Position numbers and translations under genes: made by a program
Shown: positions 2,886 through 42,269 of the stretch, in pieces
Numbering within the stretch: the first letter of the stretch is position 1
Layout of the letters: each line of letters starts with the position of its first letter
Source of the DNA: a virus
Length of the DNA stretch: 42,269 nucleotides
IMG/VR virus record: IMGVR_UViG_3300030098_004965
Span: 1 to 42,269 of that record
Strand: one strand, 5' to 3'
The notes under the pieces: model-generated
The model's input: only the letters and a program-made list of their open reading frames with translations
Database searches by the model: none
Told to the model about the DNA's origin: nothing

Positions 2886-4055
2886 TTAGTTTCCTAGCAA
2901 ACCTGTTGGCTTACCATCGCGTTCTAAAATTTTGATGCGGTCTAGGACGTCTTGGTCCCAGGTGACGTAGTTGCGGGTGCCTTCGCTCCCTGCGCGACTG
3001 CCCTGGTCAAAATATTTGAGGCCAGGGATGCCAGCTTTGCGGAGAGCTTCAGTCGCGGCCTCCTCCTGTAAAGCTCGTTTGGCAGATGGTAGCCAGGCGT
3101 CGGGGTGTGAACTCACGTCCTTTTCGAAACTAACAGCGAGATGATCTTGTAAATCTTCGCCTGTCTTTTTCATAAAATCATCGTATGAGATCAGCGTGGC
3201 GTCATCGCCAAAACGCCTGATACGATCAGCATTAATTGTCTTTAACAGGTCTGGCAGCGCTGCCTGTACGTTGGGCGGCTGCTGACTTAACGGCGCGTCA
3301 TAATCTAAAAATTTAGCGGCGTCGGCGTCGGGGATGTCGAGCTTGTAAAGGGTGCCGCCCGACGCTGTTTGACCGCCTACCATTTTATCAATACCCGAAA
3401 CAACTTCTTGAAGGCCTTTTATCTTTGGTTCCTCAAGCCAATACTGGCCCTCTTTAGCGGCAACCTTGCGCTCCGCTTCTGCAATCCTACCTAAAAAATC
3501 CTGACGCACCTCGTCGGCTTGCCCAGCGTTTACTTTATTGGCAACCCAACTAGGGATTTTTGTGTTATCCTCAAGCGTTTGATTGCCTGTCCGATCTGCT
3601 AAACGCACCTTGTAGTCAGTCGCTACTCCCGGCGCTTCCGCACTATAGAACCCACGCCCATACGCTTGAGCGCCCTCGCCGGTTCCCATCTTATCCATGC
3701 GTGGACGCCCTTGTGGAAACCCTGGCTCTGATGCCCATCTATGTGGGCCACCGTGGAAGACGTTGATGCCTAATAAGCCGCGCACGTCGCCGGTTGGAAT
3801 TGCGCGGCTTAACAAACCGCCACCGCCCATCGTGTCTAAAGCCATTTTTGTGACGTCGTCGGCCGATATGTTTTCGCCGCGCAGCGCGCGCCCTGGCAGC
3901 TCCATACGCTTGATGGCGTCTACAAAAAACTGCGGCGCAACCCAATTGCTCCAATCAATCGGACCTTTCTGCCCCGATAAAGCTCCTTGTGGGTACGGGT
4001 ACAGCCCCAAACGCCGCACGTTTGGGTCAAAACGGTCAGATAGCAGACCAGTCAT
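2886..4055 (-). CDS. ADP-ribosyltransferase-like virion-associated protein (copy A)
   Basis: The 389-residue protein has an N-terminal head-associated segment (MTGLLSDRFDPNVRR...), then a region like the ART-type domain of phage polyvalent proteins: 'INVFHGGPHRW' (about 115), 'GTGEGAQAYGRGFYSAE' (about 143), 'LYKLDIPDADAAKFLDYDAP' (about 245) and 'AGIPGLKYFDQGSR...RNYVTWDQDVLDRI' near the C terminus. The H/G and Y/S spacing suits an ADP-ribosyltransferase fold; activity is inference. It starts with ATG in a TAATG overlap with the upstream small gene and ends 1 nt before the portal start. A second version at 40991-42269 keeps these blocks, but the stretches between them are unrelated. Confidence 0.55.
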   Translation of the reverse strand: MTGLLSDRFDPNVRRLGLYPYPQGALSGQKGPIDWSNWVAPQFFVDAIKRMELPGRALRGENISADDVTKMALDTMGGGGLLSRAIPTGDVRGLLGINVFHGGPHRWASEPGFPQGRPRMDKMGTGEGAQAYGRGFYSAEAPGVATDYKVRLADRTGNQTLEDNTKIPSWVANKVNAGQADEVRQDFLGRIAEAERKVAAKEGQYWLEEPKIKGLQEVVSGIDKMVGGQTASGGTLYKLDIPDADAAKFLDYDAPLSQQPPNVQAALPDLLKTINADRIRRFGDDATLISYDDFMKKTGEDLQDHLAVSFEKDVSSHPDAWLPSAKRALQEEAATEALRKAGIPGLKYFDQGSRAGSEGTRNYVTWDQDVLDRIKILERDGKPTGLLGN

Positions 4056-4237
4056 TACGCTCTCTTTGCGGTTTTCTTGGCAGCTCTGAATGCGGCGGCG
4101 GTCGGTGCGCCTTTGGACCCAGCTTTGCGCTTGGTTTTCGTTTTACCGGCTCCCAACTTCTTCAGATTAATGTTGCGGTATAGGCCCGGTTTTTGGGCTT
4201 TGAGCCGCGCGATTTTCTGCTTTTTGGTGCGTGCCAT
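4055..4237 (-). CDS. Small lysine/arginine-rich protein
   Basis: This is a 60-residue very basic protein (MARTKKQKIARLKAQ...KTAKRA) with repeated KKxK and KRK clusters. I chose ATG 4237 because it overlaps the stop of the upstream gene as TAATG; an in-frame ATG at 4243 is an alternative. It is encoded between the terminase and ART/portal genes together with another basic protein. Function unknown; nucleic-acid binding or association with packaged DNA would fit the charge. Confidence 0.55.
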   Translation of the reverse strand: MARTKKQKIARLKAQKPGLYRNINLKKLGAGKTKTKRKAGSKGAPTAAAFRAAKKTAKRA

Positions 4238-4509
4238 TACCATTTCACCTTGTTTGCCCAATAAGCCGCCGACATTTTGCCCTTGGCTATGTTGCTGGCG
4301 TGCCTTGCTTTAAAAGACTTGCGCCGCGCCTTTTGTTTTGACGTTTGCGGATTTTTGCCAGCTCCCGATACGCCCTGCTGGCCGAACCTAATTAGCTTTA
4401 CCTGATCGCCTGACTTAGCCAGGACGGCGTGCGACTTGGTTTTGTGACCGGGGGTGCGTTTCGGTTTGTTGTAGCCGCTGAATGATTCCGAGCCGCGCTT
4501 GACGGTCAT
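4237..4509 (-). CDS. Small basic phage protein of a widespread type, unknown function
   Basis: The 90-residue protein reads MTVKRGSESFSGYNKPKRTP, then a 'KSHAVLAKSGDQVKLIRFGQQGV' type block, and ends 'KMSAAYWANKVKW'. I recall this sequence type from many tailed-phage head regions, where it is annotated only as hypothetical. It is rich in K/R and in a 'RRKSFKARHASNIAKGK' stretch, so nucleic-acid binding is plausible. It overlaps the next gene by TAATG and lies downstream of the terminase genes, consistent with a head or packaging accessory. Confidence 0.65.
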   Translation of the reverse strand: MTVKRGSESFSGYNKPKRTPGHKTKSHAVLAKSGDQVKLIRFGQQGVSGAGKNPQTSKQKARRKSFKARHASNIAKGKMSAAYWANKVKW

Positions 4510-9710: not shown

Positions 9711-9906
9711 TGCGCGCCTCGTCAATCAGCTCGCGGAATGCCTGCGAGATATCAGTCAAAGCCTCACTTAACGCGCTGTTCTCATCCTTGGCACGCCACG
9801 ACATATGCACGCCCTTGACGTTGGCATTCTCGCTCACGTCAACGTGACAGAACACTGAGCCAAAGCCGGTCTCAACTTTCTTCGTCAGGCAATGTCTTCT
9901 ACTCAT
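9700..9906 (-). CDS. Small protein of unknown function (68 aa)
   Basis: This protein (MSRRHCLTKKVETGFGSVF...) starts with ATG 9906 behind GGAG, overlapping the HNH gene stop as ATGA. It has a beta-rich first half ('GFGSVFCHVDVSENANVKGVHMSW') and a helical second half ('ALSEALTDISQAFRELIDEA'). The strand-strand-helix pattern resembles small TSCPD-like or DUF proteins next to phage replication genes, but I cannot name it. Its stop overlaps the primase-helicase start. Confidence 0.6.
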   Translation of the reverse strand: MSRRHCLTKKVETGFGSVFCHVDVSENANVKGVHMSWRAKDENSALSEALTDISQAFRELIDEARSDD

Positions 9907-10367
9907 TTAAGATCTCCAAAATTGTAAAAGAAATTGAGTTGTTCCCCGACGTTAAAACGTCGTTTGTGCAGATCGTTGTCGTAGATCGCCTTGACGGTGG
10001 AGGCGTAGAACTTGCCCCCGCGCTTGCCTGCAACTCCAATTGCATTCAATTTTTTTGCTATTTGGTGGAGAGAAAATCCGTGCCGTTTTAATTTAAAAAC
10101 ATTATTGACCGCCTTTAATTCAGCGGGGTTATCGACCAACTTTCCATTTTTTATATCGTAGCCAAAAACCGAATGATTGTAGACAAGTCCCATGTCACGG
10201 CGGCGGTGAATTGCCGCGCGCGTAAGAGCTGACGAAGTCATTTTTCGTTCGTGAACTAAACCGTGACAAGTGAGGCAAAGCGGTAACAATTTCCTTCCAC
10301 CTTTGCTTTTAGGAACAACGTGATGAAAATGAACTTCGCCCTCTTCCCCGCATTCAAAACAAATCAT
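9903..10367 (-). CDS. HNH endonuclease with recombinase-like C-terminal domain
   Basis: The 154-residue protein starts at ATG 10367 (MICFECGEEGEVHFHHVVPK) behind AGGGATC; an upstream GTG at 10406 is possible but overlaps the zinc-ribbon gene further. The N-terminal half is an HNH nuclease: 'CFEC', 'HFHHVVPKSKGG', 'LLPLCLTCHGLVH' (about 3-55). The C-terminal half 'LKRHGFSLHQIAKKLNAIG' and 'FYASTVKAIYDND' resembles the DNA-binding domain of serine recombinases. It may be a nicking or homing-type nuclease or a recombination factor. It is AT-richer than its neighbours, a sign of separate origin. Confidence 0.8.
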   Translation of the reverse strand: MICFECGEEGEVHFHHVVPKSKGGRKLLPLCLTCHGLVHERKMTSSALTRAAIHRRRDMGLVYNHSVFGYDIKNGKLVDNPAELKAVNNVFKLKRHGFSLHQIAKKLNAIGVAGKRGGKFYASTVKAIYDNDLHKRRFNVGEQLNFFYNFGDLK

Positions 10368-10512
10368 CCTGATCCCTCTCACTCTCTGTCTCCTGTTCTC
10401 CGTCACAACAATCGGCCACTGGCCGCTTACACCTCGGGCACTGATAATGACCCCTCACAAAATTGAAGTGCGTAAACTCACCGCACCAGGGGCAGTCGGC
10501 AGGCGGTATCAC
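10354..10512 (-). CDS. Zinc-ribbon microprotein (52 aa)
   Basis: A GTG start at 10512 overlaps the upstream TGA (GTGA). The frame reads a clear zinc ribbon 'CPWCGEFTHFNFVRGHYQCPRC' split as CPWC and CPRC, followed by an acidic tail (DGEQETESERDQDD). Its 3' end overlaps the HNH start. Small zinc ribbons in phage early operons often bind nucleic acid or protein partners; the exact role is unknown. The tight overlaps and intact CxxC pairs support it being real despite its size. Confidence 0.65.
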   Translation of the reverse strand: MIPPADCPWCGEFTHFNFVRGHYQCPRCKRPVADCCDGEQETESERDQDDLF

Positions 10513-17139: not shown

Positions 17140-18327
17140 TTACATTCCCCCCATTAATGTTGATATTTGATCTCCTAGCTCACTATCGTCCTGCAACTGA
17201 TCAAACCAGTGACCATACTGTCTCAGCGTGAACGAAAAATCGTGATGGCCCATTGCCCGACAAACCTTTTGCGCTGAAGTATTAAATTTAAAAATTACCG
17301 TTGAGGCATAGAAGTGGCGAAAATCATGCCATCGTATGTTATCTACTCCAGCACTCTTGCAAGCTCTGCGCAAGCCATGCCGCCGCCACGTTTCTGTGCT
17401 GGCGTAATCACCAAACCGCGTCGGGAAAACTAAATTATGTTTTTGACGTTCAATCGGTGACTGATTGACTTGCCATTTTTTCAGCAGCAACGCGAGTTTA
17501 GTCGGCAAATCAACCTTGCGCCTTCCGCGCGTGCTTTTTGGACAACCAATCAATCCAGTTTTTTTCTTAGCCTTATCGACGTTGATTTTCTTGCGCTCAA
17601 AATCGATGTCGTCCCAAGTAAGGGCGATTTGTTCACCCGCTCGCAAACCGGTGTATGCAGCGAAAATCATAGCAAGTCTGTAGCGCTCTGGTGCATGCTC
17701 AAGAACTTTGGCAATAACCTCATCGAGGTCGTTAAGCCTCTCAGTGTGAGAGACCGTGTTACCGTGAAATGGCATTTTGCCATTTTTAAAAGCGCACGGG
17801 TTTTGCTTAATTTGATCACAAGCAACCGCGTAGTCGAAGAGCTGCTTAAAATAGGTCCACTTTCGTTTGACCGTCGCCTTGGCACCCAACGCCGCTATCT
17901 TTTGCACGATGTCGGACATGATCACGCCGCGCTGCACGTCTCCAATTTTTACATCGCGCAGCTTGACACCGTCATGCTTGAACTCACCGATCTGACGTAG
18001 CGCGCACGCCTTTTCTCTCACCTCAACCATTGACAGGTCTCCAATGCTCGGCAGCGTGCGACTGGTCTCGTACTCAATAAACTTGTGACAGAAGGTTCCA
18101 GGTTCGTCCGGTGATCCAAACAGCGGTGTGTCGTTGCGGTCGGTCCACTGTTTTTTCTCAGCAGCTTGCTCCTGACACATTTGTATAAACGCCTCCGCAG
18201 CTCGACGCCCTGCTTGCGTGTTTGGAAACCACTTTGTCTTCTGGCCTTCGACAAGCTGCAGCTCTGGGCCGCTTACACAAAGCGCACGGTTCTTTGATCT
18301 CGATGGGTAGGTTCTCATTGATAACAT
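17140..18327 (-). CDS. int: Tyrosine integrase
   Basis: The 395-residue recombinase has the catalytic set of phage integrases: Arg229 in 'YTGLRAGEQIALTW', His334-x-x-Arg337 in 'WHDFRHFYAS', His361 in 'AMGHHDF' and nucleophile Tyr371 in 'LRQYGHWF'. The N-terminal arm-binding and core-binding domains precede (about 75-190). Start ATG 18327 follows the TGAGAGGAGAGA leader. It should recombine attP (19629-19677) with the 3' end of a host tRNA-Glu gene. Three small genes lie between it and attP. Confidence 0.93.
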   Translation of the reverse strand: MLSMRTYPSRSKNRALCVSGPELQLVEGQKTKWFPNTQAGRRAAEAFIQMCQEQAAEKKQWTDRNDTPLFGSPDEPGTFCHKFIEYETSRTLPSIGDLSMVEVREKACALRQIGEFKHDGVKLRDVKIGDVQRGVIMSDIVQKIAALGAKATVKRKWTYFKQLFDYAVACDQIKQNPCAFKNGKMPFHGNTVSHTERLNDLDEVIAKVLEHAPERYRLAMIFAAYTGLRAGEQIALTWDDIDFERKKINVDKAKKKTGLIGCPKSTRGRRKVDLPTKLALLLKKWQVNQSPIERQKHNLVFPTRFGDYASTETWRRHGLRRACKSAGVDNIRWHDFRHFYASTVIFKFNTSAQKVCRAMGHHDFSFTLRQYGHWFDQLQDDSELGDQISTLMGGM

Positions 18328-20254: not shown

Positions 20255-20588
20255 AGTCCTGCTCTTCCAGCGCCGCTATCATGTTTTGAAATTTGGCAAG
20301 GTTACCTGGACCCATATTAAACGCCATCTCGGTCAAGACGTCGCGACGGCGTTGGCTCAGCCAGCTCCACACCTCAGAGCCGACCACGCGCTCGGCCGCT
20401 TCCTCGAACCGCTCGATGTCGTTGGTAAGTAAATACTCTGCTTCCTCTTCAGTGATACCTGCGCCAGGAACGTCAGGGTCAATACAGCGTCCAAAGCCCA
20501 ATGTGAGCTTGTCCAAACTGCATCTATATCCGGTTCGGCTGAACCCTTCTCCTAGCTTAATCGAGTCGATAAGTTCCTGGGTAATCAT
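20163..20588 (-). CDS. Endolysin, T4-type lysozyme (GH24)
   Basis: The 141-residue protein starts at ATG 20588 (MITQELIDSIKLGEGFSRTG), overlapping the holin stop. Catalytic Glu14 lies in 'KLGEGF', followed by 'YRCSLDKLTLGFG' with the threonine of the GH24 triad, and C-terminal 'MAFNMGPGNLAKFQNMI'. No signal peptide, so it needs the holin to reach the peptidoglycan. Family length is normal. Confidence 0.92.
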   Translation of the reverse strand: MITQELIDSIKLGEGFSRTGYRCSLDKLTLGFGRCIDPDVPGAGITEEEAEYLLTNDIERFEEAAERVVGSEVWSWLSQRRRDVLTEMAFNMGPGNLAKFQNMIAALEEQDYDLAAAEALDSRWAKQVGQRAERLAQRLRG

Positions 20589-21001
20589 CGCTTCAACTTC
20601 TTCGCTACTTTCTCGCCGCTGCGGCCGACGATATACCCACCCACGCCCACGGTAAGCAGGGTCCATAATTCGTCCGGTAAATCTATAGCCAGCGGAATGA
20701 TGTTGCCGGTGGACAATTGCACACCCAACTCAATTAGCGGGGCAAACAAAAAATTCCAGGCGACTATGGCTGTGATGACCAGCATTAGTATTGGTCGCCA
20801 CGTTGCCGTAATAAAATGCTCTGACTTAGCTTCAGCTACCACAACAGATGCCGCCGCCTTCTCAATGGCCGCTGTGTTTTGCAGCACTGCCATATTTAGT
20901 TCGCGCTCTATCTCTTGCGCTTTGTTTTTGTCAGCAGGTAAGACTCTACCCACCACGTCTTTAACGATGGGGCCAAGTACTGGAAGCAATGCACCTATCA
21001 T
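20585..21001 (-). CDS. Holin (3-TM type)
   Basis: The 138-residue protein (MIGALLPVLGPIVKDVVGRVL...) has an N-terminal hydrophobic/amphipathic segment, a charged middle and two membrane helices ('ATWRPILMLVITAIVAWNFLFAPL', 'ELWTLLTVGVGGYIVGRS') with a lysine-rich tail, matching the 3TM holin family of phages and gene transfer agents. It overlaps endolysin (4 nt) and the upstream coiled-coil gene (4 nt) as a lysis operon. Confidence 0.88.
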   Translation of the reverse strand: MIGALLPVLGPIVKDVVGRVLPADKNKAQEIERELNMAVLQNTAAIEKAAASVVVAEAKSEHFITATWRPILMLVITAIVAWNFLFAPLIELGVQLSTGNIIPLAIDLPDELWTLLTVGVGGYIVGRSGEKVAKKLKR

Positions 21002-31828: not shown

Positions 31829-33036
31829 TTAGCTGGTTGTCGCATCGGCAACCATGCCGGATGCTTTTTCCTGACGTGAGATCAGGGTGTACTCGACCAA
31901 CATCTGACGCTTCTCGGAATCGCCAGTCTTGCTAAGTTCATGCTGGCTGAAGGGCCGGAGGTAGGAAATTTCCCAGTGGTCCTTATCCAACACCCAAACG
32001 TCTCGGTCGCGACTGAACCTGTTTGGGACAATCTCTAGGTCACCAAAATCGGACTGATAGATATCAATCGCCGCCGTCAGTTTCTTATCTTCCCCAACGT
32101 CGAACCGCGTGCTGTTACCAGTGAAACCACTGATTACAGTTTTGTTGTGCGGTCCAACCATGACCATTGATGGCTCGCCACCCTCGGTCCAGCAGTTTTG
32201 AATTGCTGTTTTAAGGAGGCTCTCCGTCAAGGCACGTTGGGTGCCGTCGGTCCTGGCGTCGGTGCCGTCGCCCGTGGGGCTGGCGGCTGAGCCGCCACCA
32301 AGCACGTCGTTGGTGGCAATCCAAGATCCCAAAGAACCGATCTTACGAGCGGTTGTTGCGTTACCGGCGACTTGGGCTTGGTTGGCAGTAAGGGTGGCTT
32401 CTATGTCCCTTTTTAGCTCTTTGCCCCGCTTGGCAATTTGGTAAGCTAATTCTGATTTTCTGCCTGCCTTGGAAATGACCTCCTGAGTGCCGGTCGTGAC
32501 AACTGTTTTGTCAGAAATTTGTGTATAATTTCCAACGCGAACTGTTGCGACTGACGCGTCCAGAGTTGCTTCGTCACCTTCGATTACCGCATTTGCGTTT
32601 ATCTTCAAACAAGATCGCTAGTCTTGTCCCGCCTTATGGCTGCTGCACATTGCTTTTCAACCTGTGCAGACGAGATCATATCATCACCCTCTTTTGAGGG
32701 GCTGGGCGCTTCGGAACCGCTTGGCTCCTACTCCCTTTCGGGATGATCGTTGCACCTTCCTCTTGCGAGGCTTGGCTCAGGATTGTCTCTTGCGAGAGTT
32801 TCCCTGAGTTCACCCAGTTTTCAACCGCTCATTACTGAACGGCGGCACAAAATTTATGCACTTGCGGAAGCGAGGGCGTCGGTTTGCCACTCCTCGTAGG
32901 TTGCAGTGGCTTTCGCTTGTTTGCACATGGACATGAATGGCGTGTCCATAGGCGAGATCGACGTAATGATGTCGGAGAGCGACTCTCTGTTGCCCTTCGA
33001 GTCATATGTGTCGAAGGTGTTGCTCGGTTGAGCCAT
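31829..33036 (-). CDS. Major capsid protein (SU10/DUF5309 type), split by a group I intron
   Basis: Two exons, 33036-32856 and 32595-31829, together give 948 nt, exactly 316 codons including stop (315 residues). Exon 1 begins MAQPSNTFDTYDSKGNRESL and ends in 'YEEWQTDALASASA'; exon 2 continues 'NAVIEGDEATLDASVATVRV', through 'GNYTQISDKTVV' and 'AKRGKELKRDIEATL' to the C terminus 'MLVEYTLISRQEKASG'. This is the order expected for a DUF5309 coat protein with HK97-type fold. Spliced, the junction codon is Ser, giving 'ASASNAVIEGD'. Unspliced, translation stops at TAA 32854-32856. ATG 33036 has AGGAGT. No homologous coat gene is seen in the left copy, whose scaffold gene runs off the edge. Confidence 0.88.
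32596..32855 (-). ncRNA. Group I self-splicing intron in the capsid gene (260 nt, no ORF)
   Basis: The minus-strand RNA shows a group I core. P1: exon GCAU (32859-32856) with GUGC (32848-32845), giving the U-G pair at the 5' site. P2: CCGUUCA/UGAGCGG (32842-32825) with a GUAA loop. P4: CUCAGG (32808-32803) with CCUGAG (32781-32776). P5 and P6 have GCAA tetraloops (UCUC/GAGA at 32797-32786; CCUC/GAGG at 32770-32759). P7: GAUCAU (32748-32743) with AUGAUC (32679-32674). A CCCUC-AAAA-GAGGG hairpin lies at 32700-32687, and P9-type stems at 32669-32643 and 32627-32609. The final G is 32596. 'CAGGGAAAC' and 'CAAUCCUGAGCCAAGCC' resemble the IC3 introns of bacterial tRNA-Leu genes. Exact ends inferred. 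Confidence 0.88.
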
Positions 33037-34347: not shown

Positions 34348-35962
34348 TTATTTTCTTTCGCAGTTTTTGAAACTGTTCCACGCCGGTGAGAGCTGCGCCG
34401 GTGGTAAAGAATTGCACAGTACGCAGGTAGTAATTGATGGCGTGTTTTAGCCCTGGCTTGAGGCCGCGACCGTAGGCAATGAATGCCTTAAATTCGCCAT
34501 AATATTTTTCGGCTTTGCCACGCTCGATGGCGCGATTGCCCAGGTATTGATAACCCTTGCGGAACAGCTCACCCCACCACTTACCGTGATATTTTTTCTG
34601 GCACCAAACCTCGGCTTTGGCCTTGTCGCGCTCCGAAAAGCCGCCGGTTTTGACGCCGTGGGTTGCGATTACACACCCATCGCCACCACCGCCGCCGCCG
34701 CTGTCATCGCCAAAATAATCTTCAATGCCGCCGGTCATGCCGGATGCGCTATAAGTATCGCCCATCGCGGTGGTGCCGGTAGCACTGACATCATCGAAAG
34801 ACCCAAACGGTCCTGTTTCGTCATTGCCTACAAAACCAGCGCGGCCCATTTGGTCATCGATGCCTAGCTGGTCATTTACATCGACCGCGTTTAGGCTTCC
34901 AAAGGTGCCGTCGCTTTTAAATCCTAGCCCGTAGCCAAATGCGCCGCCCTTGGGCGTGCCGTCGTAATTAAACATTGCTGGCGTTGCTGAGATGCCAGTG
35001 TTTCCGACGGTGCCCAAGCCGTAACGGCCGGTGTAATCGTTCATCATTGGACCGCCCCACACATAGTTTTCAGGCGTGACTTGTTTACCTACCGGTGACA
35101 TCAACGTGCCCATCGGGCCAGAGGCGTTAAATCGGTAATTGTTAAACGCGTCGCGACCGTAAGGGCCAACCTCAGATAAATCACCGGCGCGGCTGGTGCC
35201 AATCATGCGAGAAAATAAAGTGCCCATAGGAAGTCCTTGGGCCAAGAAAGAGGCACCGTCGCGCAAATTGCGCGCGTCTGTAATTTCTGGGTCCAAAAGG
35301 TCTTGGCCTAGTACGTCGAACCGACCACCGCCGCGAGTGTCTTTTGATGCAATGAAACCCAGGTTTTCCAATACGCTTGGCGGCTCATCTCTTGGGTCAA
35401 GAGCTGGGGCATAAGCGCGGCCGCTTTCGTCGTATGTGACACCGCCTGGGGTGTAGCCAATGTCCATTGTTGTCGGCTCTTCTTGCGGCTCCTCGTAGTA
35501 TGGTGGAACAAGACGAAGCTCCCCTGGCTCGTAGTATGACGTTAAATCTTCCTGCGCATAATCACCAACCGGCCCCTGACCTGTGCCGTAGGTCATGCCG
35601 TAGCCAGGGTTATTTGGCTCATCTAACAATCCAGGCTGCGCAGGATTGGCGAAACGGTAGTCAATTTGCATATAAGGGTTGTCGGCTGTTTTGCCGGTAA
35701 ATTTTTGATCTGGCCGTGGCTCAACAGCAACCGTTCTTGGGTCAGAGAGAGGCTGCATGTCATCAGTGCGACCGTCGTCCATTACCTCATTCTGCCGCTG
35801 CACCACTTGCGGCAAGACTTCTGGTGCGACCTGATCGACCATGCCGGTGTCTGGGTTGCCGACGGTGACGGCGTAGTCACCAGGGGTGTAGAACGGCGTA
35901 TAGGTCGGACGTGATGCGATTATGTCGGCGCGTGCTTGCCGCCAGGGATCGAGTAAACTCAT
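34328..35962 (-). CDS. Large Gly/Pro/Tyr-rich structural protein with CVIAT motif
   Basis: The 544-residue protein has a long disordered-looking N-terminal three quarters (many G, P, D, Y; repeated 'YGTGQGPVG', 'GYTPGGVTYD', 'GYGLGFKSDGTFG'), a glycine run 'SGGGGGGDG', and a compact C-terminal domain starting 'CVIATHGVKTGGFSERDKAKAEVWCQKK' with 'GELFRKGYQYLGNRAIERG'. The C[VF]IAT motif with a helical tail recurs in other phage and bacterial proteins. It lies between portal and the small protein, where copy A has nothing. Probably an internal head protein. Confidence 0.5.
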   Translation of the reverse strand: MSLLDPWRQARADIIASRPTYTPFYTPGDYAVTVGNPDTGMVDQVAPEVLPQVVQRQNEVMDDGRTDDMQPLSDPRTVAVEPRPDQKFTGKTADNPYMQIDYRFANPAQPGLLDEPNNPGYGMTYGTGQGPVGDYAQEDLTSYYEPGELRLVPPYYEEPQEEPTTMDIGYTPGGVTYDESGRAYAPALDPRDEPPSVLENLGFIASKDTRGGGRFDVLGQDLLDPEITDARNLRDGASFLAQGLPMGTLFSRMIGTSRAGDLSEVGPYGRDAFNNYRFNASGPMGTLMSPVGKQVTPENYVWGGPMMNDYTGRYGLGTVGNTGISATPAMFNYDGTPKGGAFGYGLGFKSDGTFGSLNAVDVNDQLGIDDQMGRAGFVGNDETGPFGSFDDVSATGTTAMGDTYSASGMTGGIEDYFGDDSGGGGGGDGCVIATHGVKTGGFSERDKAKAEVWCQKKYHGKWWGELFRKGYQYLGNRAIERGKAEKYYGEFKAFIAYGRGLKPGLKHAINYYLRTVQFFTTGAALTGVEQFQKLRKKINDLRNR

Positions 35963-38118
35963 GATAACCGGTCCTTATCACCCTCAAATGTTTCATGCTC
36001 TAGGCGCTCGCGTGCCATCTCAGCCTCGACCGCCAGCTTGCTGGCTCCGGCTTCCGCGTCGGCCGCAATCTTGGCTGCGGTCTGCTCGATGTTGGCCGCT
36101 ATCTTCTCACGCTCGATGGCTAGGCGCTGGTTCATCTCGGCCATCTTCATCTCCAGCTCTTGGCCCTTCATCTGCAATTCAGCTTCCAGCTCCTGCATCT
36201 TGCGCGCCTGCTCGGCCTGGATCTCTTCGCGCCGCACGTTCAGTTTCTCACCCTCGATCTTGAGCTGGTTCTCCATAAACGTCTGATTAGGATCAGGCTG
36301 CGGCTGCGGCATGTCTGAGCCGTCGGGCGCTGGCTGGGTAAAATACTTTGCACCATCGATGCCGCCCTCTTTGGTCAGATCTGTGAGGCTGGCATATACG
36401 TTCTGACGACTGACAATTGAGCCAGGGCCAAAGCCCATGTTTCCGGCCAGCTCTTTTTGCGCATTGATGACGTTGGTCAGTGCGAGGGCACGTTTCTCAT
36501 CATTGCCATACCCGAGACCGACTTGGATGGTGACGTCGTATTGTGTGTCCCAATTACGGGGGTCCATCGGCACCCACTGATTATGAATCCTGACCATGCG
36601 CTCTTGCTGCTGGTGCATGACAACGCATTTGAGGATCTTGCTGAACACGTCTTTGACGCCGCCCTCTGCGAAGATGCGGCCGATCATCTCAATGCGCTGC
36701 TGCGCCATCCCCAGCATGAGCTTGACGCCGGTCGCGGTTGCGTTGGGGTTGAGCTGGTCCTGATGGATGCCTTGGGCGTTCTTTGTCACGCCTGTGCGCA
36801 CCTCTTTGACCTCATCAGCATAACGCATGGCCTCAAGCACGCTCGGGCCGACCGGCGAATGCTGCAGCTCGCGCACCATCCCTGGCTGTTTGACCCGCAC
36901 GATACCGCCTGGGCGGCTGTTCAACATGTCGTCCATGTTGACCATGCCCTCAACCACCTCATGGCGGTGGTTGTTGCCGATATAGACGCTGTCTAAATAG
37001 TTGCGCCACAAGCTGGTCTTGATGTCTTGGATCGTGAAGAGCTGGTCTGCCAGCGACATGCCGAAAAACCGGTGCGGCATTGGGATAGGAATGAGGCAAC
37101 TGAAAGGCGGTTCCGCGACTTCTTCTTCATCTAATATCTCGTAAGCACCTGAACCTGCAGCCAGTACCCTCACCCATTCGGCGATACCATCGCCGTTTCT
37201 ATCTACTTTGACGTATGTGTCGTATAGATAAATCTCTCTGCGGCTGGGGTCGTGTGCGTCTTCGCCGCCTTGATAGTTTCCAAAGTCGCTGTCGTCCAAG
37301 CCCTCTCGCAGGAGCTGCTCGGTGCCTAGATGCTCATCACTCACCGACGGGATGTTGTCGATGACCGACTTTTTATAGCCCATCGCGACAAGGTCACTGG
37401 CCGTGTAGCGTGCGCGGTGCGCAACGAAATTAGCTTCCTCTAAAGTGCGTGCGCGGCGCTCGATAAAGAAGTCCTCGGGCGCAACTGATTCAATGACCAC
37501 GCGACCGGTGTTCTTTTTGCGCCGGATTTTTAAATCATGTGAGCGCGAGGCGGGAGCTTCGAGGCTCAAGTCGTCTGACCCCAGGCTAACTTGCTCCTCG
37601 TTGACTGTATGCTCAACCGCCTCGACCTCTTTATCCGCGAGCATAAGGACCATTTCCTCATCGGTCAGCCCCTCATACATCTCGGTCGTGACGTCTGTCT
37701 TTTCCACCCATTGCGTCTTTAAGCATCCAAAGCCGGATAGCAGCGCGTCTTTAAACACCTCATGCAGCAGCATGACGCCAGGGTTGTCTTTCAAAAAGAT
37801 GTGGTTGCAGTAATCGCTTACCACGCCTGCGGCGGCTTCATCCTCGGGGCCGACCGGCTCAAACTTCACAACATCGTTTGTGCTGGTGAATGCTTTGAGC
37901 AGGCTGGGTAACATGCTCTCGACCGTGTCCATGACATCGGTGCTGATTACGCGGCTGCGGCCCTCGATCTCGTTGCCCATCGGGTAGCCGAGATAATACT
38001 CAAGCGCCTTCTCTCTGCGCCGCTGCAGCTCGCCGCCATAGTACCCCGCGCTATTGCGCAGGCCGTCGCTGATGATGGCTTTGAGTGCTTGTGTAGTGAC
38101 TTTTTTACGTCGTGCCAT
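35959..38118 (-). CDS. Portal protein (copy B)
   Basis: The 719-residue portal has 'KALEYYLGYPMGNEIEGRS' (about 38), 'VVKFEPVGPED' (about 82), 'TEMYEGLTDEEM' (about 145), 'SRPGGIVRVKQPGMVREL' and 'VRTGVTKNAQGIHQDQL' in the ring region, and a very long Q/E/A coiled-coil tail (about 605-705). It matches the copy at 866-2884 block by block but is longer and clearly diverged. ATG 38118 overlaps the previous stop (TAATG), and its stop overlaps the next ATG. Confidence 0.9.
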   Translation of the reverse strand: MARRKKVTTQALKAIISDGLRNSAGYYGGELQRRREKALEYYLGYPMGNEIEGRSRVISTDVMDTVESMLPSLLKAFTSTNDVVKFEPVGPEDEAAAGVVSDYCNHIFLKDNPGVMLLHEVFKDALLSGFGCLKTQWVEKTDVTTEMYEGLTDEEMVLMLADKEVEAVEHTVNEEQVSLGSDDLSLEAPASRSHDLKIRRKKNTGRVVIESVAPEDFFIERRARTLEEANFVAHRARYTASDLVAMGYKKSVIDNIPSVSDEHLGTEQLLREGLDDSDFGNYQGGEDAHDPSRREIYLYDTYVKVDRNGDGIAEWVRVLAAGSGAYEILDEEEVAEPPFSCLIPIPMPHRFFGMSLADQLFTIQDIKTSLWRNYLDSVYIGNNHRHEVVEGMVNMDDMLNSRPGGIVRVKQPGMVRELQHSPVGPSVLEAMRYADEVKEVRTGVTKNAQGIHQDQLNPNATATGVKLMLGMAQQRIEMIGRIFAEGGVKDVFSKILKCVVMHQQQERMVRIHNQWVPMDPRNWDTQYDVTIQVGLGYGNDEKRALALTNVINAQKELAGNMGFGPGSIVSRQNVYASLTDLTKEGGIDGAKYFTQPAPDGSDMPQPQPDPNQTFMENQLKIEGEKLNVRREEIQAEQARKMQELEAELQMKGQELEMKMAEMNQRLAIEREKIAANIEQTAAKIAADAEAGASKLAVEAEMARERLEHETFEGDKDRLS

Positions 38119-40990: not shown

Positions 40991-42269
40991 TTACTTTTTA
41001 AAAATCTTATTAATTACTATATCGAGTCGTTCATCGTTTTTTTTGACTACCTCGTCGTAGGATAGCCGTTTAAAACCAAATTCATCCGTACCCTTTAAGT
41101 GACCGACGTAATCCTGATACCTGCTTGGTCCTAACGTGTGATCACTTACTCGAATCTCGCCATACCTGCCGTCTGGCGCTCTAATTTTTAAATATGTGCT
41201 TTTTCCAAACCTGTTTCCCGAACGGTTTACTTCGACACTAAACCCCGCGTCTTTTAGTTTTTGAGTTGCGCGTTTAGCCTCGCTTTCCACTAGATCAAGA
41301 AATGGCTTGCCACCGGTATCAGTTACGTTGCGTTCAACAAACGGCGCTCCCGCCGCATCCACGTTACGATCTGCCAGTGGCTTACCGTCGCGTTCTAAAA
41401 TTTTGATGCGGTCCAGTACATCTTGGTCCCAGGTGACGTAGTTGCGGAGGCCTTCTCTTGTGCCGCGACTGCCTTGGTCAAAATATTTGAGGCCAGGGAT
41501 GCCAGCTTTGCGAAGAGCTTCAGTCGCGGCTTCCTCCTGTAAAGATCGTTTGGCAGATGGTAGCCAAGCATCGGGATGTGAACTTATTGCACTCTCGGCA
41601 GCATCTACAATTTTTTGATAAAGCTGTTGCCCTGTTAATGTTGATTTTTCGGCAGGTATTAATTGTTTGAAACCCTGCAAATCCTCTAACGCGCCAAATA
41701 AAGCGTCTCGCAATTCTTTCGGCTGATTTTTTATCGGCGCGTCATAATCTAAATACTTGGCGGCGTCGGCGTCGGGGATGTCGAGCTTGTAGAGGGTGCC
41801 AGGAAGTGCAACTTCTGGCAAAGTTTGGTCTGATCGTAATACTTTAACTGCGGGATTATTTTCACCACCTTTGAAAACTGAGGCATGAAAATCAGCAGCG
41901 GCTTTTCGATCACCGCCATGTCGTGCAAGTTCAAATGCCGCTGTGTGTACAGGGTTGTTACCTTCTATTGGCTTGCCATCAATAGTTGGTTTTGGCCCGC
42001 CTTGCATCGCAGAAATCTTTCCTTGGTATGTTCGCGCAACGTCTGGATGTTCCGCACTATAAAACCCACGCCCATACGCTTGATTGCCCTCGCCGGTTCC
42101 CATCTTGTCCATGCGTGGACGGCCCTCTGGAAACCCTGGCTCTGGTGCCCATCTATTTGGACCGCCGTGAAAGACGTTGATGCCTAATAAGCCGCCCACG
42201 TCGCCGGTCGGTACTGCGCGGCTCAACAAACCGCCACCGCCCATCGTGTCCATTGCCATTTTTGTGACG
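40991..42269 (-). CDS. ADP-ribosyltransferase-like virion-associated protein (copy B, 5' end cut by the right edge)
   Basis: The frame is open to the window edge; upstream codons read 'VTKMAMDTMGGGG', equal in place to 'VTKMALDTMGGGG' of copy A, so the real start lies outside. It keeps 'LLGINVFHGGPNRWAPEPGF', 'GTGEGNQAYGRGFYSAE', 'GTLYKLDIPDADAAKYLDYDAP', 'SSHPDAWLPSAKRSLQEEA' and 'RNYVTWDQDVLDRIKILERDGKP', then adds about 130 residues absent in copy A ('LADRNVDAAGAPFVERNVTDTGG...DIVINKIFKK'). Segments between the shared blocks are unrelated. Confidence 0.55.
   Translation of the reverse strand, partial: VTKMAMDTMGGGGLLSRAVPTGDVGGLLGINVFHGGPNRWAPEPGFPEGRPRMDKMGTGEGNQAYGRGFYSAEHPDVARTYQGKISAMQGGPKPTIDGKPIEGNNPVHTAAFELARHGGDRKAAADFHASVFKGGENNPAVKVLRSDQTLPEVALPGTLYKLDIPDADAAKYLDYDAPIKNQPKELRDALFGALEDLQGFKQLIPAEKSTLTGQQLYQKIVDAAESAISSHPDAWLPSAKRSLQEEAATEALRKAGIPGLKYFDQGSRGTREGLRNYVTWDQDVLDRIKILERDGKPLADRNVDAAGAPFVERNVTDTGGKPFLDLVESEAKRATQKLKDAGFSVEVNRSGNRFGKSTYLKIRAPDGRYGEIRVSDHTLGPSRYQDYVGHLKGTDEFGFKRLSYDEVVKKNDERLDIVINKIFKK

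Follow-up and report, generated by a model that had tools for sequence, protein, structure and literature searches.

Self-splicing introns as such have long been known. The locus described here raises the question of what such an element is doing inside the gene for a phage coat protein, and how that protein could still be made. The window, which is the whole 42,269-nt stretch of the viral IMG/VR record IMGVR_UViG_3300030098_004965, carries on its minus strand a major capsid gene of the SU10 family that is broken by 260 nt. In all probability, this segment is a td-like (IA) self-splicing intron that lacks a homing endonuclease gene (HEG), was recently inserted at codon 61, phase 1 (site 61.1), and is tolerated as a selfish element rather than being a known regulator.

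The interrupted capsid gene

The first capsid exon (32856..33036, minus strand) opens with the ATG at 33036 and ends in GCAU, its final base being U32856. There the frame runs into a TAA composed of T32856, A32855 and A32854, a stop codon that straddles the 5' splice site, and it reopens at C32595, where the second exon begins (31829..32595, minus strand, stop codon included). Both exons are delimited by translation, by the profile PF17236 and by alignment to intron-less relatives (L002 and L006 for the first exon). The intron between them (32596..32855, minus strand) starts with AAA, ends with AAACG and has its omega-G at 32596; it is defined by the Rfam group I model RF00028, by its exact insertion and by covariation. 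Excision of 32855..32596 produces a single frame of 315 amino acids with the junction ...ASAS|NAVIEGD, and this product matches PF17236 (SU10_MCP, DUF5309) over profile positions 4-291 of 292 (E 3.9e-99, 332 bits). The original prediction, that removing 260 nt restores 315 residues across an SNAVIEGD junction, is thus confirmed by translation and by the protein family. No endonuclease ORF is present within the 260 nt, all three forward frames of which contain stops. The proposed check with the covariance model RF00028 returns a match at 32865..32643 (minus strand) with a moderate score of 61.4 bits, above the cut-off of 50 (E 2.6e-13), and this is the only Rfam match within the window.

The closest coat genes, those of the IMG/VR loci L002 and L006, are uninterrupted and share 95-96% protein identity with the window exons. 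At the DNA level they are about 90% identical, and both exons align to them with no bases between T32856 and C32595, so that the DNA of these intron-less relatives is continuous exactly at the proposed junction. When the window is compared with the whole 40-kb L006 contig, the only break in this region is 32594-32860, and about 14 kb around it is collinear. The claim of an ORF-less group I intron at 32596-32855 in an SU10/DUF5309 coat gene is borne out, and its boundaries are exact. Judged from the sequence, the intron is real and belongs to group I; its class is ordinary and its location is new. The bases around the junction read GCAT|CAAAT in the window and ACAT|CCAAT and ACGT|CGAAT in the relatives, and the window differences add one pair to P1 and one to P10. 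These exon changes, which would favour the two helices, are suggestive only, being few differences over about twelve bases.

Site 61.1 has no further occupant among the best 80 IMG/VR coat loci or among 14 loci from prokaryote genomes, and its occupation in the window phage is so far unique. None of the nearest 80 coat genes (0/80) is interrupted at all, in a list that favours uninterrupted genes. The cellular genomes that hold the nearest coat relatives are mostly alphaproteobacterial.

The contig itself shows some peculiarities. Two SU10-type portal genes, 38% identical to each other, are found at 866-2884 and 35959-38118, and the 40-kb L006 contig, a circular permutation with respect to the window, has the second only. 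The window ends, 2886-4055 and 40991-42259, both match positions ~3121-4469 of the L006 contig, and this end repeat reflects duplication of a module or, alternatively, a contig end contributed by a variant phage. The odd second portal gene at one contig end counts against the contig; the intron region is still collinear with the L006 contig.

RNA structure and predicted splicing

The intron can be folded, on the minus strand, into a complete group I architecture. In P1, which is short (4 bp), the guide GUGC (32845..32848) pairs with the exon sequence GCAU (32859-32856) and places a U.G pair at the splice site. Just 5' of the guide, UUUU (32852-32849) can pair with the 3' exon CAAAU to form P10; like P1, this helix is read from the sequence. 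The U.G pair and the omega-G at G32596 are compatible with the exact insertion boundaries. P2 (32825..32842), identified by sequence and folding, has the form CCGUUCA[GUAA]UGAGCGG. P3 (32702..32817) joins 32817-32813 to 32706-32702 and is supported by the Rfam match and covariation. Rfam, folding and covariation together define P4 (32808-32803/32781-32776) and P5 (32797-32794/32789-32786, with a GCAA loop) within 32776..32808, and Rfam and covariation define P6/P6a at 32755..32775 (C C / G G; CCUC[GCAA]GAGG). P7, the guanosine-binding helix, spans 32674..32748 and pairs GAUCA (32748-32744) with UGAUC (32678-32674), as covariation indicates. Between its strands lie P7.1 (CCC[GAAA]GGG) and P7.2 (GGAGCC[AAGC]GGUUCC) at 32713..32742, which covary, are the same in the T4 td intron and, set between the 5' strand of P7 and the 3' strand of P3, are the additional helices characteristic of subgroup IA, and P8 (32687..32700, CCCUC/GAGGG), taken from Rfam and the fold. 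The P9/P9.1/P9.2 domain (32609..32669), based on covariation and comparison with td, consists of CUGCACA/UGUGCAG, GCC/GGC and ACAAGA/UCUUGU, and is followed by UUGAAGAUAAACG, a td-like ending. P1 with its U-G pair, P2, P4-P6, the GNRA loops (GUAA, GCAA and GCAA), P7 and P9 had all been drawn in the original prediction and are all found; P3, P7.1, P7.2, P8 and P9.2 are additional to it.

The folding energy of the intron is -100.4 kcal/mol (z = -5.2), and comparative evidence comes from 27 homologous introns of SU10 coat genes, distinct at 95%. Across this set, 92.3% of pair cells are standard and 37 of 53 pairs have changed on both sides, the count omitting P1 and P2, which MAFFT misaligned in alignment A4. 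The covariation score is 0.562, as against at most 0.149 when the partners are slid. P3 is paired in 99.3% of cells, with changes on both sides in all five of its pairs, and P7 in 100%, with two pairs changed on both sides. P7.1 (97.5%) and P7.2 (95.7%) also contain double changes, while P9 and P9.2 are paired in 98.5% and 88.3% of cells, respectively. P8 is paired in only 68% of cells in A4, where its region is poorly aligned.

Such a structure suggests the following course of events. The late capsid pre-mRNA would fold the ribozyme, and the guide GUGC would set the 5' splice site after U32856. A guanosine bound in P7 would then attack this site, and the freed exon would attack after G32596, joining the exons into the message for 315 residues. 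The TAA over the 5' splice site would halt ribosomes before they could disrupt the ribozyme. If ribosomes stop there, full coat protein would come from the spliced message only.

Capsid introns elsewhere and their movement

At its curated cut-off, RF00028 misses several introns of this clade, namely the 59.1-type introns of L246 and L291 and the second intron of L292, a sister of the window intron. Rfam-based surveys should therefore undercount capsid introns, and for this reason the survey relied on core DNA patterns and on frame restoration against a capsid HMM. Two such patterns, scanned over IMG/VR, gave at least 220 loci (L082-L201, L205-L304). Splice sites fitted by restoring the coat-protein frame have a well-fixed frame, while the exact nucleotide may be a few off in some cases; positions are given in window numbering as codon.phase. 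At least 46 introns could be mapped in SU10 coat genes at about 15 positions, which among the matches listed are 22.0, 30.0, 55.2, 59.1, 60.2, 61.1 (the window only), 81.2, 92.0, 106.0, 112.1, 118.0, 119.2, 237.2, 239.2 and 241.2. This number includes near-identical contigs, and 27 of the introns are distinct at 95%. All those among the matches listed measure 242-278 nt, and each of these mapped introns (46/46) has an in-frame stop no more than 10 codons from the 5' splice site, a pattern that would follow from a need to keep the ribozyme clear of ribosomes.

Several of these genes contain more than one intron: four in L246, three in L103 and L293, and two in L292 and L283. In L246 (minus strand, ~5792-3734) the predicted introns lie at 22.0, 59.1, 118.0 and 241.2, and their removal gives a coat protein of 354 aa that matches the family end to end. 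A whole coat protein is likewise restored when the predicted introns are taken out of L103 (three; 316 aa), L292 (two) and the cultured phage C72C1 (one). Among the relatives of the L246 coat gene (L401-L418), those that share at least 80% identity with it form a graded series, with no intron in nine contigs, one each at different sites in L404 and L411, two in L413-415, three in L412 and four in L418, which is the L246 contig. The L103 clade shows a similar series of none, one (L390-394), two (L292) and three (L103). We did not find this multi-intron pattern, with alleles from 0 to 4, described before. The literature search yielded nothing on SU10-family capsid introns or on several introns per capsid gene, and since it covered few subscription journals this is weak evidence of absence. 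Alleles of this kind form a natural series for studying the spread of introns that have no endonuclease, the splicing load that the most highly expressed gene of a virus can bear, and the number of coat genes that annotation pipelines split or miss.

Group I introns in virion genes of phages are on record. The mycobacteriophage LittleE (Cluster J) has one in its major capsid gene that, unlike the window intron, measures 819 bp, contains a LAGLIDADG-like ORF and interrupts an HK97-like capsid gene (PMC3706429). It is efficiently spliced in vivo late in infection, as shown by RT-PCR and N-terminal sequencing, and the authors did not settle its type (PMC3706429). Tuc2009 is cited in the same article as a further phage with a group I intron in a capsid gene. 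In BAKA and Optimus an endonuclease-less intron of 265 bp in a virion gene is spliced according to RT-PCR (PMC3706429); these are mycobacteriophages, the gene is a tail gene, and the likeness to the window intron is one of size, lack of an ORF and location in a virion gene. The nearest counterpart is the intron of phage C72C1 (OQ984150.1), which shares 75% identity with the window intron over 224 nt. At 251 nt it too is ORF-less and located in an SU10-family capsid gene, though at site 112.1 rather than 61.1. Its record splits the 'major head protein' (L202:1154-2355) into two CDS plus hypothetical proteins, leaving the intron unrecognised, and the spliced form would have 316 aa. The novelty that the original prediction implied for an intron in the coat gene is not supported: introns in capsid genes had been published for LittleE and, as cited in PMC3706429, Tuc2009, while no description was found for the SU10 family, although the C72C1 deposit contains one.

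The hosts of the clade, dereplicated from the at least 220 loci to 145 clusters, were classified by Pfam on the 3' side, which was available as 125 pieces. Among the matches listed, capsid families are SU10_MCP (18), Phage_capsid_2 (10), P22 coat (6), Phage_capsid_4 (6), Phage_capsid_3 (3), Gp10A (1) and Mu gpT (1), whereas non-capsid hosts include DNA_pol_A (18), ribonucleotide reductase (3) and RNA polymerase (2). Capsid hosts thus amount to 34-45 of the 125 pieces, a range given since a piece may match two capsid families, and among the matches listed they are the commonest hosts, with DNA polymerase A second. The 5' side agrees for capsids. In the same IMG/VR sample, td-like introns also occur in tail tube genes. 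The bias is a property of the introns and not of the coat genes, given that the nearest 80 coat genes, in a list that favours uninterrupted ones, are all uninterrupted. To our knowledge, capsid genes are not otherwise known as a favourite intron home. Most annotated relatives found by blastn in cultured phages interrupt DNA polymerase or terminase genes, C72C1 providing the one coat gene. A bias of phage group I introns towards genes of nucleotide and DNA metabolism has been termed mysterious (2025, PMC12350094). Against that expectation, the one clade sampled here from uncultured phages is most often housed in major capsid genes.

Sequence kinship indicates that the window intron has changed its site. 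It is 91% identical to L292:677-937 and 82% identical to L103:1160-1410, both at capsid site 119.2, which is not homologous to 61.1. The L292 coat protein is only 34% identical to that of the window, and 12 kb of L292 outside the introns has no detectable DNA similarity to it. High intron identity at a different site, in so distant a coat gene, amounts to transfer to a new position, although the intron is endonuclease-less. The guide core GUGCC is common to the window and 119.2 introns; the stretch facing the 3' exon is not the same in the two, and in each case it suits the local exon sequence. The intron tree places the window intron within the 119.2 lineage with moderate support (94/77), and in a larger tree SU10 hosting changes at least eight times on well-supported branches. 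The window intron would then belong to a family that has invaded capsid genes again and again.

Two kinds of route could account for this movement, and either is compatible with a tolerated selfish intron. Transfer at the DNA level, either through collaborative homing, in which a free-standing homing endonuclease works in trans, or through ordinary recombination, is somewhat favoured. There are known cases of ORF-less phage introns that move by collaborative homing (PMC3984707), and other introns of the clade often have ORFs for HNH, GIY-YIG or endonuclease VII proteins as neighbours. However, no HEG was found among the scanned genes beside the window coat gene, where the only candidate is an HNH-plus-recombinase fragment at 9906-10406, about 22 kb away, and an endonuclease in trans explains spread at a single site more easily than the finding of 91%-identical introns at two sites that are not homologous. 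The ORF in question (9906-10406, minus strand) gives weak matches to an HNH endonuclease and a serine Recombinase and is missing from the collinear L006 contig (gap 9906-10397). It is rather unlikely, by comparison, that compact endonuclease-less introns spread by reverse splicing into abundant late capsid mRNA at guide matches of 4-6 nt and are then copied into DNA, and the support for intron reverse splicing is circumstantial wherever it has been proposed (PMC3984707; PMC1299323). If true, this route would explain why the capsid gene is the commonest host, the presence of up to four introns per gene, the use of about 15 positions, and the 91%-identical intron at two sites.

Decay, regulation and subgroup

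A decayed intron that no longer splices, in a contig whose coat gene is broken or a minor variant, has a small chance of being the correct explanation. The absence of a HEG and the short P1 would fit it, and splicing is predicted from sequence; yet all core helices are intact, the exons are fully open with 95-96% protein identity to intron-less relatives, the core of its L292 sister is almost the same, and the contig retains a set of late genes.

Slightly less probable still is a regulatory role, in which splicing would act as a switch sensing cell state. The original prediction had suggested that the intron could couple coat output to cell state, and its location in a message that tends to be the most plentiful of the late ones, together with the general need of group I splicing for guanosine and Mg2+, makes this conceivable. 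However, coat genes at least 80% identical hold 0, 1, 2, 3 or 4 introns at different places and the nearest relatives of the window phage have none, which argues against a needed regulator. Moreover, the ribozyme fills the 260 nt, leaving no aptamer-like addition.

The original prediction also likened the intron to subgroup IC3, which would make it a bacterial tRNA-type intron that had entered a phage coat gene, and held it to be unlike the usual phage introns. The IC3 core lacks P7.1 and P7.2, and its usual home is bacterial tRNA genes. A small, ORF-less intron would resemble tRNA introns, and the general group I core is common to both, but this assignment is very improbable here. P7.1 and P7.2 exist and covary, the host is a coat gene, no tRNA is found in the window, and the introns nearest to it come from polymerase, terminase and capsid genes of phages. 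Helices such as P7.1/P7.2 are among the features that separate group I classes (PMC3984707). The compensatory pairs in both helices and the T4-td-like phage introns as nearest relatives place the window intron in subgroup IA; within it, the label IA2-like, over IA1 or IA3, is tentative. The T4 td intron (IA2) aligns with it in both its 3' and 5' halves and has in common with it the core, P7.1/P7.2, P9-P9.2, an ending GAA(C/G)ATAA..G, and an exon U at the splice site that is immediately followed by TAA. The differences lie in what surrounds this architecture, since td is 1017 nt long with the I-TevI gene and resides in thymidylate synthase, whereas the window intron is an ORF-less 260 nt in a coat gene.

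Translation of the segment as protein, be it an intein, a recoded stretch or an insertion that keeps the frame, is next to impossible. Nothing beyond the interruption of a gene speaks for it, whereas stops occur in all three frames, the first codon being TAA, the 260 nt are absent from relatives, and the RNA has a strong covarying structure; stops in all frames and empty relatives led to its rejection.

As for the phage that carries this tolerated intron, an integrase gene is found at 17140-18327 (93% identical in the L006 contig) and a GTA_holin_3TM holin gene at 20585-21001 (minus strand), and from these two genes the window phage is likely to be temperate.
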